Source: Flavipsychrobacter stenotrophus (lineage in GTDB: Bacteria > Bacteroidota > Bacteroidia > Chitinophagales > Chitinophagaceae). From it: a stretch of 64,000 bases of DNA. Below, piece after piece: positions 17,292 to 20,435 of the stretch (position 1 is its first letter; each line of letters starts with the position of its first letter). Under the pieces are notes generated by a model. The model did no database searches and was not told where the DNA came from. It worked only from the letters and a program-made list of their open reading frames with translations. Location: contig NZ_PPSL01000001.1 of NCBI RefSeq assembly GCF_002954265.1, positions 744,001-808,000 of the forward strand, given 5' to 3'. The position numbers and the translations under genes are program-made.

Positions 17292-17365
17292 GGCGAGGTA
17301 GCTCAGTTGGTTAGAGCACAGGATTCATAACCCTGAGGTCGGGAGTTCAAATCTCCTCCTCGCTA
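17292..17365 (+). tRNA. tRNA-Met (anticodon CAT), integration target of the adjacent element
   Basis: This is a 74-nt cloverleaf. The acceptor GGCGAGG pairs with CCTCGCT (first pair G-U) with discriminator A. The D arm is GCTC/GAGC, the anticodon stem CAGGA/CCCTG with loop TTCATAA (anticodon CAT), and the T arm GGGAG TTCAAAT CTCCT. The innermost anticodon-stem pair is A-C, a mismatch. A lysidine-type tRNA-Ile with the same CAT cannot be fully excluded, but the body resembles elongator Met. CCA is not encoded. The 3' half overlaps the antisense end of the serine recombinase gene. Confidence 0.92.
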
Positions 17366-18815
17366 CAGAAAGAGACAAGTCAGCATTTATGCTGGCTTTC
17401 TCTTTTTTAGCACCTTCTGAAACGCTTGTCAGGCAAGGGATTAGCTTGAAGACTTGGTTCATATTATCGGTTAGATATGACCTATTTTCGGGGATAACGA
17501 CCAAACCATCTGGAAATAGTACCTTTTGAATCCGTTGTTTATTATGAGAAGTCCCGACCTCCCATTGTTTACTGATGTTTCGGCAAACTGTAATGGCTCT
17601 TTCTATAAATTCATCGTGGTTAGATAATTTACTTTCTAAATCTGCAATGGTTCTTTCCTTTTTCAGTATTTGAGCGTCAATTTCATTCTTATGCTTCAGA
17701 TAAACGTCTTCAGTCACGCTATTACCGAACAGGAATTTCTTTTCAAGACTCTGCATGTTGCTGGTTAATTCTTCTAATGTGATTTTTTGCAACTTCAACT
17801 CGTTAGTAGCATCGAGGTTTAGTGTTTTAAATAGTTTCTGCAATTGGAGTTTAAACACACCGACATAATTTTCTTGAAGGTTCACCCCCTTCAGTAATTC
17901 TTTAAAGCTATCGTTCAAGCCCTCGTTTCTTGATGAACGTGTTGTACTTGCGTTCATGTTAACACCTGTACAGTGATTGCATTTGTAGTAGTGTACACCT
18001 TTCTTTTTAACCTCATAACCAGTAAGCAACGTACCACAGTGATAGCACTTCAGGAACCTTGCAAGAGGGCGATTATCGTTATTGCTGGACACTTGATACG
18101 TACCTTCTTTAGAAGGGTTGAGAATGGCTTGTATCTTCCAGAAATGGGCTTCGGTTATCATCGGTTCCCAGTTCCCTTTACATGGTTCATCGAGAAGTTT
18201 GTTTACTGAAATACCGCAGTAAAATGGGTTTCTCCAATTTTTACTAATCTGCTGCTTAGTTAACACTATCCCCAATCCCTCTAATCTCTTCAGGATTGCG
18301 GTATCTGTCTCGCCCTGTAACTTCCATTGCCATGCAGATGCAAACAGCCTTCCTTGCGCATTTATTTCTATTGTTTGTACAGCGCATTTACGATCATAGT
18401 CTTTTACCCTTGTGCCTTTTGTGGTGTAACCATATGGCGCTTTACCCAGTCTATTACCCTGTTTCAAAAAAGCCTTTAACCCAGGAAGTGTGGCAGCTAA
18501 TCTGGTTTGGTTTTCAGTCTGAGCATCCAATAATCTATGATAAATTTGGATTTTGTCCTTGACGTTTTCTGTTGATAAACCAGTTGATGTTTCTATTATA
18601 TGAACATTCAAAGTTTCTACCAATTCATGAACGATACTAATGGCATTTGCACCAGTACGAGAAAACCGATTAATAAATTTAATAGCAATTGCAAATGGGC
18701 GAATTTTACTTATTTTAATACCATCATACAATTTCTTAAACTCTTTTCTATCGAAGTCACCAGATGCGCTTTCGTATGTACCTCCAATAATCCTCTCCAC
18801 AATAAAGTGATTCAT
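17325..18815 (-). CDS. Large serine recombinase (integrase of the tRNA-Met element), N-terminus apparently truncated
   Basis: A 496-residue site-specific recombinase. Visible parts are the end of the resolvase domain (GGTYESASGDFDRKEF then FINRFSRTG, about 11-60), the recombinase domain (GLKAFLKQGNRLGKAPYGY, about 110-128), a zinc ribbon (KCYHCGTLL then YKCNHCTG, about 255-285), and a coiled coil (about 340-420). The usual first 30 residues with the catalytic-serine Y-x-R-x-S motif are missing: upstream the frame is open for only about 23 more codons, then TAA. The final 13 residues (VARRRFELPTSGL) and the stop come from sequence antisense to tRNA-Met. It presumably integrated the element here; whether it is still active is doubtful. 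Confidence 0.85.
   Translation of the reverse strand: MNHFIVERIIGGTYESASGDFDRKEFKKLYDGIKISKIRPFAIAIKFINRFSRTGANAISIVHELVETLNVHIIETSTGLSTENVKDKIQIYHRLLDAQTENQTRLAATLPGLKAFLKQGNRLGKAPYGYTTKGTRVKDYDRKCAVQTIEINAQGRLFASAWQWKLQGETDTAILKRLEGLGIVLTKQQISKNWRNPFYCGISVNKLLDEPCKGNWEPMITEAHFWKIQAILNPSKEGTYQVSSNNDNRPLARFLKCYHCGTLLTGYEVKKKGVHYYKCNHCTGVNMNASTTRSSRNEGLNDSFKELLKGVNLQENYVGVFKLQLQKLFKTLNLDATNELKLQKITLEELTSNMQSLEKKFLFGNSVTEDVYLKHKNEIDAQILKKERTIADLESKLSNHDEFIERAITVCRNISKQWEVGTSHNKQRIQKVLFPDGLVVIPENRSYLTDNMNQVFKLIPCLTSVSEGAKKEKASINADLSLSVARRRFELPTSGL
17359..17366 (+). repeat. Candidate attL core CTCGCTAC
   Basis: This 8-bp sequence forms the last seven bases of the tRNA acceptor region and one base beyond it. 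An identical copy is at 20371-20378. It also encodes, antisense, Val-Ala and part of Arg near the recombinase C-terminus. Confidence 0.6.
17379..17408 (+). terminator. Element-borne terminator behind tRNA-Met
   Basis: GTCAGCA (17379-17385) and TGCTGGC (17390-17396) form a stem with a TTTA loop. An outer AA/TT and a GAGA/TCTC extension follow, and then a T run at 17403-17408. It ends plus-strand transcription from the tRNA. It lies inside the coding region of the antisense recombinase gene. Confidence 0.7.
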
Positions 18816-18855
18816 TTTTGCAATAGAGATACCTGAATTATTAGTTAATATAAGG

Positions 18856-18918
18856 TCAAACCCACCGCTTGCTGCAAGTTCTTATATTACCAATGAAAAT
18901 GGACAAAGAAAATATCAT
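18856..18918 (-). pseudogene. Possible out-of-frame N-terminal fragment of the serine recombinase
   Basis: A 20-codon minus-strand frame (ATG at 18918, stop at 18856) encodes IFIGNIRTCSK, which resembles the strand carrying R-x-S in serine recombinases. Dropping one base after the AAG codon would join it to the downstream frame (GGFDLILTNN leading to AKMNHFIVERIIGGTYES), giving about the expected spacing to GGTYES. The catalytic position would still be ambiguous (Cys then Ser), so this is weak evidence. Confidence 0.35.
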
Positions 18919-18971
18919 TTAGATTTGGGTTTTAATTTTTGTTTTTTAAATTGATATTATTAAAAATCAAT

Positions 18972-19181
18972 ATGGATACAACAGTTTTTTTTGAAGAAAA
19001 TATAAAAGATGCAGGTGGTAAAAATGGCGAAGTTCATTTTGAAATGGGTAGGTCATCTTATTTAAACGGTAAAAATTTAATTTACCTTTCCATTGATGGT
19101 AAGAATCTAATTTTAGACGAAAATACAGGAAGAGAACTTGTTGATGCTTTTAACAAAATAGGCCATTATTTAAGCTACTAA
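18972..19181 (+). CDS. Unknown small protein of the tRNA-Met element (cargo 1)
   Basis: A 69-residue acidic protein starting MDTTVFFEENIKDAGG. I chose the ATG at 18972; eleven more codons upstream are open but rich in Phe, Leu and Ile. It looks soluble, with alternating beta strands (EVHFEMGRSSYL, NLIYLSIDGKNLIL) and a C-terminal helix (GRELVDAFNKIGHYL). I recognise no family. It is the first of three plus-strand cargo genes and is divergent from the recombinase, with which it shares about 150 bp of upstream DNA. Confidence 0.6.
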   Translation: MDTTVFFEENIKDAGGKNGEVHFEMGRSSYLNGKNLIYLSIDGKNLILDENTGRELVDAFNKIGHYLSY

Positions 19182-19221
19182 TAGGATGTATGGTGCTTTG
19201 CTGAACGATTAACCCAATAAC

Positions 19222-19891
19222 ATGAAAATTAAACTCAATACTGTCCCTGAAAATTCTTCAGCACACCAACAATTTTTTTTAATGACCCAAATAGCGCAAA
19301 AAGTAAGCGTGGTCAACGTCGATGGTTATTATTTAGGTAGAAACATTTTGTTCGATTTTGATTTAGATTACATTAATAATACACTATCAAATTGGGACAG
19401 TATAGATAAAGTAGATTTTGATGCTAAGCTGTGCGCAATTATCAATGAAAACCGTGATTGGATTATCAAGTATGCAATTGAAGCATTACCAAGTAGAAAA
19501 AATATAATAGAATCTATTTTCAAGTTGTATGATGAAAAAAAACTATGTAGCATTAATTCCATTAATTCTTACCCAGATAGACGGTATGGCAAAGGATATC
19601 ACACTCGGCAAGACGGGTTTCTATAATAGTAAATCAGATAAGCTGGTATTTCCAGTTACTAACCCATATGTTTTTTTTGTTTCTAATGCGTTACAACTAC
19701 ATTATGGCAACAGAAATGATTATGAGTTATTTAGGAAGAATATCGCTAATCCACAGGAATTTAATCGTCACGCCATTTTACATGGCGAGTCATTCCAGTT
19801 TGGAACAGAAAGAAACGCAATAAAAGCTATTCTACTTTTTGATTTCGTGCGTGAAATTTACTGTGCTAATATTGATTACGACTGGCTTTAA
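19222..19891 (+). pseudogene. Cargo 2 of the element, split by a frameshift at an A8 run; possible HEPN-like C-terminus
   Basis: Two overlapping frames read as one about 222-residue protein. The first (19222-19626) is protein-like up to KLYDEK and then degenerates. The second (open from 19529 to 19891) becomes protein-like at NYVALIPLILTQIDGMAKD. They meet at eight A residues (19535-19542); seven would give a continuous frame. The C-terminal part contains FNRHAILHGE, whose R-x4-H spacing recalls the catalytic motif of HEPN RNases, followed by the helix GTERNAIKAILLFDFV. The HEPN link is inference from a short motif. The split could be a real inactivation, slippage on the A run, or a base-count error. 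Confidence 0.6.
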
Positions 19892-19928
19892 TTAACGAAT
19901 TACATTTGTTGTGTTTAATTAATATTAT

Positions 19929-20222
19929 ATGGAGAATGTTGTTTATGTTTTATTGAGGGGGCATGTCGGCTATAATACTTTTGAAGGTATATATAAAGAT
20001 TTTGACGTTGCAAAAAAAATGAAAACCGATGAACATGTTATTTGGAGTAACAAGATTGACTCAGAGCAAGTAATTAATGATACCATTTATGTAGCTCAAG
20101 CATGGGACGTAGCTGCACATATCCATATTTACAGCGGTATTTTTTACTCTTATGAAAAACCGAAAGACTGGTTAGGCGAAAAAAGTATGATATTACAATA
20201 TAAACTCACTCAAATGGAGTAG
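19929..20222 (+). CDS. Unknown 97-residue protein of the element (cargo 3)
   Basis: It starts MENVVYVLLRGHVGYNTFEG. The N-terminal strand VVYVLLRGH and the phrase FEGIYKDFDVAKKM suggest a small alpha/beta protein that would be soluble, and it ends in YSYEKPKDWLGEKSM. I recognise no family and see no signal or membrane segment. It lies 37 bp after cargo 2 in the same direction, and its base composition is AT-rich like the rest of the element. It is the last gene before the right end. Confidence 0.55.
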   Translation: MENVVYVLLRGHVGYNTFEGIYKDFDVAKKMKTDEHVIWSNKIDSEQVINDTIYVAQAWDVAAHIHIYSGIFYSYEKPKDWLGEKSMILQYKLTQME

Positions 20223-20300
20223 ACATGTCTTTATTTTCTATTCCTTATCAAGTATACACTTTTCTCATTGCTGTAATAAATGTAATTAAGCCTTTAATAG

Positions 20301-20378
20301 TTAGGTAAGCCATTCGTATAGCTCAACCACCCTATAATAGTCCCGTATTAAGTTAGATATTTCATCCTTTCTCGCTAC
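20301..20378 (-). other. Right-end minus-strand coding tail that would complete the recombinase in the circular form
   Basis: Read on the minus strand from the CTCGCTAC copy, in the frame the recombinase uses at its own copy, the sequence is open for 25 codons to a TAA at 20303-20301. It encodes VAR, then a charged stretch ending RDYYRVVELYEWLT. There is no start for it in the integrated state. A 22-codon open frame can occur by chance, so the evidence is the matching frame plus the protein-like content. Confidence 0.45.
20371..20378 (+). repeat. Candidate attR core CTCGCTAC
   Basis: This is identical to the 8 bases at the 3' end of tRNA-Met (17359-17366) and is immediately followed by host-like sequence with a terminator. 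Confidence 0.6.
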
Positions 20379-20382
20379 TACG

Positions 20383-20416
20383 AAAAAGCCTTTCAGTTCA
20401 AACTGAAAGGCTTTTT
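20383..20416 (+). terminator. Probable native terminator of tRNA-Met, now separated by the element
   Basis: A near-perfect hairpin (AAAAAGCCTTTCAGTT / AACTGAAAGGCTTTTT) lies 4 bp after the attR copy and is flanked by an A tract and a T tract, so it works in both directions. It also ends the minus-strand DUF4337 gene at 20436. Confidence 0.8.
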
Positions 20417-20435
20417 TGTTGAATTAGTTCCTTTC

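Follow-up and report, generated by a model that had tools for sequence, protein, structure and literature searches.

An integrase gene that contains its own attachment site: tRNA-targeting serine recombinase elements of Bacteroidota in which integration would exchange the C-terminus of the enzyme

Introduction

What becomes of an integrase when the site at which it recombines lies within its own gene? The question is raised by a small element inserted at a tRNA-Met gene of Flavipsychrobacter stenotrophus, on a stretch of 64,000 nucleotides (contig NZ_PPSL01000001.1, positions 744,001 to 808,000) that is called the window here and whose own numbering is used for its features. A large serine recombinase (LSR) gene of this element runs antisense into the tRNA gene, and since the attachment core lies inside the integrase gene, entry into and exit from the chromosome should exchange the last residues of the enzyme. 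The arrangement had been seen as a single case in an earlier note on this DNA; judged from the sequences compared here, it is common to many relatives of the recombinase. We think it probable, on balance, that these relatives represent a group of tRNA-targeting elements of the Bacteroidota with the attachment site attP inside their own LSR gene, in which two DNA states would give rise to two integrase isoforms.

Results

The element and its target

The locus is defined by the following features.

17292..17366, plus strand: tRNA-Met(CAT), the target gene, whose 3' end is the left core copy (ARAGORN)
17325..18815, minus strand: LSR open reading frame (ORF), 496 aa, integrated form, without the catalytic N-terminus (ORF list, Pfam, alignment)
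17359..17366, no strand assigned: left core copy CTCGCTAC, tRNA side (repeat search)
20371..20378, no strand assigned: right core copy CTCGCTAC, far end (repeat search)
17345..17350, minus strand: T-loop motif TTGAAC, +17 to +22 from the core start, proposed attB-type zinc-ribbon motif (sequence, family comparison)
20352..20357, minus strand: TCTAAC, +22 to +27 from the core start, proposed attP-type zinc-ribbon motif and codons S and N of the native tail
20301..20369, minus strand: putative native tail KDEISNLIRDYYRVVELYEWLT plus TAA, in the recombinase frame once the cores recombine (similar tail at the far end of the relative L103)

The recombinase ends in VARRRFELPTSGL and its stop codon lies within the anticodon loop of tRNA-Met; both this and the coordinates were as the earlier note had them. 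The 8-bp core, said there to be repeated at 20371-20378, occurs only twice on both strands of the 64-kb window, at that place and at 17359-17366. Joining the two copies in silico kept the frame and led from VAR into KDEISNLIRDYYRVVELYEWLT and a TAA stop (minus-strand codons 20369-20304, TAA at 20303-20301), which reproduced the predicted 22-residue tail and a product of 508 instead of 496 aa. We also agree with the caveat that a 22-codon open frame could be due to chance and is weak by itself.

An empty site (L200) was present in a genome of the same genus (G262): there both flanks adjoin an intact tRNA-Met without interruption, the host terminator being part of the right one. The tRNA occupies 1422-1496 and the alignment of the right flank begins at 1501, with four intervening bases unlike those of the window. 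The element is therefore 3,012 bp long and inserted at the 3' end of tRNA-Met, in agreement with the boundaries proposed before. Two hairpins that resemble terminators belong to the locus:

17367..17412, plus strand: terminator-like hairpin brought by the element for the tRNA and located in the coding sequence of the recombinase (fold -20.6 kcal/mol)
20379..20420, plus strand: terminator-like hairpin of the host, which the insertion has moved away from the tRNA (fold -24.6 kcal/mol; adjoins the tRNA in L200)

Across the group, 63 of 70 distinct junctions have such a hairpin within the final 60 bases of the gene, compared to 36 of 350 sequences with shuffled bases. The corresponding site in another species of the genus (L199, G424:C195) holds a full tRNA-Met, and an 84%-similar partial copy of it about 300 bases further on is perhaps the scar of another insertion.

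Relatives enter their target tRNAs in one frame

Of 394 genomes of the bacterial family, 72 encode relatives of the recombinase at E 1e-40. Genome contigs scanned with alignment A1 as query yielded 238 stretches encoding relatives, and the analysis went on with the best 80; a first scan of this kind with the window protein as query found no relative. IMG/VR gave three relatives with A1, 12 with A2 (two of them on contigs already given by A1) and none with L105, and the three A1-found ones, read at the C-terminus, included no native-type tail. The plasmid and phage collections contained no relative of L008 (E 1e-20 and 1e-15).

At 31 of 36 loci from the window genome and the family genomes, and at 60 of 83 loci from IMG/VR and the best 80 of the 238 contig stretches, the recombinase ORF runs into or through a tRNA in antisense; the two sets share a few contigs, and some of the non-entering loci are broken or cut by contig ends. 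The commonest target is tRNA-Met, and tRNAs for Leu, Glu, Asn, Ser, Pro, Phe, Asp and Arg are hit as well. We then considered 77 junctions with a tRNA starting near the stop codon (56 contig or IMG/VR loci, 20 fetched elements and the window, with five contigs counted twice). One and the same frame into the antisense tRNA is used in 76 of them, across 11 anticodons, with GA[AG] of the T-loop as tail codon 7; the sole exception, G000_Leu, goes back to a wrong junction coordinate set in the analysis. The tRNA-encoded tails vary with the target, and where an integrated relative has a full gene, its recombinase domains lie in a single ORF (domains shown for L084, L005 and L103).

The genome of the window contains more such recombinases (L002-L006). 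Their targets are tRNA-Met and tRNA-Leu, and a fragment reads into tRNA-Glu. L004 differs little from L005 but ends in a degraded tRNA-like stretch.

Far ends with a motif at a fixed distance from the core

To locate the far ends of the elements, the DNA upstream of each gene was scanned for the core in the frame of the gene. The first examples had the residues SN at tail positions 8-9, which correspond to TC[TG]AAC at +22 to +27 in the DNA. The criterion used was confined to DNA (at least 5 core bases plus TC[TG]AAC at +22) and is blind beyond +27. It was applied to 75 elements, from which five duplicates (L114, L123, L129, L148, L130) had been removed and L098, which ends in no tRNA, had been excluded. 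On the gene strand there were 35 matches in 34 of the 75 elements, compared to 0 on the opposite strand; the 35 include the window itself and G000_Leu, which looks like a chance match. Given that far ends of the same build occur in relatives (35 versus 0), the layout of the window is more than chance. Elements with a far end became more frequent with the length of upstream DNA: 0 of 13 (less than 5 kb), 3 of 17 (5-20 kb), 12 of 19 (20-45 kb) and 19 of 26 (at least 45 kb). At 1,261 gene-strand core places the hexamer was found 35 times at offset 21 and 9 times at offset 16, with a mean of 0.5 at the 74 offsets other than 21, which takes in the 9 at offset 16.

The hexamer thus stands at +22 at the far end, and the related T-loop motif at +17 on the tRNA side, a shift of 5 bp. 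For a serine integrase, PMC3783163 reports the zinc-ribbon motif 5 bp nearer to the centre in attB than in attP, and the proposed zinc-ribbon motifs of the group studied here show this attP/attB shift of the large serine integrases.

Other ways of defining far ends were set aside. Core length alone was swamped by chance matches. A count based on a D-motif (32 of 69 elements, opposite strand 0 of 69) was not relied on, as the motif had been chosen after the tails were seen and five contigs were doubled, and a smaller DNA-only count (28 matches in 27 of 66 elements) was superseded by that of the 75 elements. The tail of G000_Leu (GAATFNTSNLAAGVYF and onwards) looks like that of a secretion domain; it was kept in the 35 and dropped from the codon-position and BLOSUM62 tests. 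A second tRNA-Met element of the window genome, with the tail VGSTGEMSNQIFEDLLKIYQVAKKLGI, shares only 4 core bases and is outside the 35.

The native tail as a probable coding sequence

Past the motif, the frame stays open for at least 10 codons in all 35 far ends, compared to 12 and 13 of 35 off frame. The native tail has about 20 to 35 residues and in many far ends resembles SNxFIxDYYKI. Position 14 is occupied by D in 25 of 35 tails, and hydrophobic residues are found at position 11 in 97% and at positions 15, 18 and 21 in more than 80%. As far as sequence can tell, this spacing would fit a short amphipathic helix. The ratio of non-synonymous to synonymous differences (pN/pS) was 0.55 in frame versus 1.16 and 1.26 off frame in 81 non-independent pairs of at least 60% identity, and 0.33 versus 1.31 and 0.84 in 20 non-independent pairs of at least 70% identity. 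In the range of 45-60% nucleotide identity (138 pairs), the BLOSUM62 score per residue reached 1.56 in frame, compared to 0.09 and -0.13. The tail of the window and that of the L103 far end, SNLIRDYYRVVELYEWL against SNFLRDYYQVVDLYDYL, agree in 9 of 15 residues over codons 10-24, with 8 of 13 base differences at third positions.

In one relative, L105, the joint of core and tail is found in genomic DNA. Its recombinase continues at the core into VALTGQFSNHFINDLKILG, a native-type tail; about 27 kb beyond this fusion (L246-L247), a second, distant recombinase (about 26% identical) overlaps tRNA-Met, and the far end of L105 itself, VAGSIQLSNRFFDDFNEVLRLVS, was found upstream. Our reading is that two elements stand in tandem here, with the tail fused to the L105 recombinase belonging to the next element, and that their joint mirrors the core-to-tail joint expected in a circle. 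The AlphaFold2 model of L105 has a mean predicted local distance difference test score (pLDDT) of 79.7 for the body of the protein and a predicted template modelling score (pTM) of 0.47, and its best Foldseek matches are serine integrase complexes. A similar fusion occurs in L098 (SVAPPEQMSNFFLEDLEKLLSIPITRNAS), where the following 39.8 kb contain neither a tRNA nor another recombinase. The earlier note had suggested a search for alternative tails in homologous recombinases, and similar tails were indeed found at the far ends of relatives and at one joint of a tandem array.

The shared frame, the open far-end tails, the likeness to L103 and the tandem fusion argue that the recombinase of the circle probably ends in a translated native tail, which integration then replaces; that this tail is both translated and under selection is suggested by these comparisons with moderate confidence.

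Att/tail ends in series were observed in addition. At a tRNA-Pro of G065 (L056-L057), five of them stand in a row, spaced by 635, 2426, 1174 and 6494 bp (compare L174-L175 and L166-L167). Most serial ends are preceded by a hairpin-like stretch, and the three shorter units have no recombinase among the listed ORFs; such units may be cassettes without a recombinase of their own.

The recombinase of the window is truncated

The window LSR ORF does not contain the catalytic-serine stretch, and the YTRVSSKEQ-like stretch of full-length relatives is missing from it. Its open frame starts with ELAASGGFDLIL after a TAA, the startless frame reaching upstream to about 18881, and the alignment to L083/L084 (303 of 498 residues identical) begins at residue 56 of their 553-residue open frames. 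A Pfam search of the window protein gave no match to the resolvase domain PF00239, which is matched by all four full-length relatives scanned (L105, L084, L005 and L103). The match to PF07508 (Recombinase) reached 22.3 bits against a cut-off of 21.1, and PF13408 (Zinc ribbon) 20.5 bits against a cut-off of 25.3, with ribbon cysteines that align with those of relatives. Because the catalytic N-terminal part is missing, the product of 496 or 508 residues is not a complete enzyme, and with this loss the window copy is therefore probably dead. The idea of an integrase changed by its own integration is thus supported as a layout by the relatives, whereas the window product does not stand as a working example of it. 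Its sequence suggests that the window element is a small, probably immobile, truncated relic of its group.

Four ORFs form the cargo:

18939..19181, plus strand: 80 aa, no family match
19222..19626, plus strand: 134 aa, no family match
19529..19891, plus strand: 120 aa, no significant family match; overlaps the 134-aa ORF in a different frame
19929..20222, plus strand: 97 aa, no significant family match

The overlap of the 134-aa and 120-aa ORFs (19222-19891) comprises about 100 bases. When 294 genomes of the family were searched for the 134-aa ORF, none of the 293 besides that of the window had a relative of it.

Discussion

It follows from the DNA that the circle, if formed, would encode the recombinase with the native tail, and that integration would swap this tail for a tRNA-encoded one. 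We hypothesize that the two DNA states make two integrase isoforms in this way. With attP x attB recombination as the task of the circle and attL x attR recombination as that of the integrated copy, a state-specific isoform would be the simplest role: the native tail with its amphipathic-helix spacing would serve the circle form, either in attP x attB integration or in the control of direction or amount, and the form with the tRNA tail would be the enzyme made for attL x attR excision. In the window copy, whose catalytic domain is gone, the switch would be a relic unless served in trans. We tentatively extend this to a possibility that we hold with less than even confidence, namely that the integrases of the clade carry their own DNA state, with a conserved helical tail in the circle and a tail from antisense tRNA in the integrated copy, the tail acting as a built-in control of direction or dose. 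In this view, roughly 130 bp would hold the recombination site, the new terminator of the tRNA and two alternative C-termini.

Several observations weigh against a translated and functional tail. No circle was seen for any element, and 41 of the 75 elements have no far end by the criterion, including 7 of 26 with at least 45 kb of upstream DNA. Below 45% nucleotide identity (342 pairs) there was no in-frame excess over frame 1 (-0.51 versus -0.49). The codon-position contrast is only moderate and reached by 110 of 20,000 column shuffles, and ten disjoint pairs differ 24/22/30 times at codon positions 1/2/3. AlphaFold2 leaves residues 517-555 of L105, including the tail, at a pLDDT below 50. 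A functional role of the tail is a hypothesis that is built on sequence.

In a rival explanation, attP happens to lie at the 3' end of the gene, the bases of the far end are conserved because the recombinase binds them as DNA, and whichever tail is translated is without a role. Such a neutral overlap is consistent with the fact that the most constant bases (core and TC[TG]AAC) are attP-type DNA motifs, that varied tRNA-encoded tails must be tolerated, that the third-position excess is weak in disjoint pairs and that the tail is unordered in the AlphaFold2 model. We nevertheless consider it rather unlikely, given that all 35 frames continue without a stop for 10 codons or more after the motif (12 and 13 of 35 off frame), that protein similarity at 45-60% nucleotide identity is seen in frame only, and that D14 (25 of 35) and the hydrophobic residue 11 (97%) fall beyond the motif.

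The native tail could also affect stability as a degradation tag or stabiliser, so that the amount of integrase would differ between circle and integrated copy. This would resemble the repressor of phage BPs, which loses an ssrA-like tag on integration (PMC4557955), and 7 of 35 tails do end in AS and two in VS; the AS endings are, however, confined to close relatives and most of the 35 tails end otherwise, which makes this explanation improbable. Far less credit still is due to coincidence, that is, an 8-bp repeat plus an open frame by chance. Neither is rare alone (by a rough estimate about 1 in 4 for an open stretch times 1 in 3 for the frame), but the empty site and the similar tail of L103 contradict it, and the attP-type motif stands at the position of the family, with 0 matches on the opposite strand. 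We therefore keep to the elements with attP inside the integrase gene as the preferred reading.

The intact relatives share domain order and fold with the large serine integrases of the LI/A118, phiC31 and Bxb1 type and differ from them by attP inside the gene, by a C-terminus that integration would change and by tRNA targets; the window copy differs in addition by its lack of the catalytic domain. The integration-dependent immunity of mycobacteriophage BPs is alike in that attP lies in an ORF and integration changes the C-terminus. In BPs, according to PMC4557955, this ORF is the repressor, whose prophage form is 33 residues shorter and has lost the ssrA-like tag, while here the gene is a recombinase (Pfam) and its tail would be exchanged for a tRNA-encoded one. 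The suicidal integrases of the SSV type, called exclusively archaeal in PMC8371274, likewise have the recombination site inside the integrase gene. These, however, are tyrosine recombinases whose gene is split, whereas the present ones are bacterial serine recombinases with domains that stay in one ORF. The streptococcal IME_Spy2096_SNF2 is similar as a serine-integrase element with the site within the integrase gene; it is a single element in a protein gene, and the available portion of PMC5357655 describes neither a tail exchange nor a conserved native tail. A Riemerella island was rejected as a comparison, its integrase being a tyrosine enzyme (PMC6764341). No account of the arrangement was found in the titles and abstracts of the open-access literature, a scope outside which subscription papers mostly fall.

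For the study of such islands, the frame of the gene through the core followed by TC[TG]AAC at +22 provides a rule for locating attP and the far end. C-termini such as GTGLEPVTFGL should be annotated with the caution that they are tRNA-encoded, and an enzyme cloned from a genome would be the integrated form and not the native one. Serine integrases are one-way tools, and the natural control of their direction and amount is still being studied. A clade in which integration would rewrite the C-terminus of the integrase may therefore offer a simple system of two isoforms for testing this control, and its intact relatives make the idea testable.

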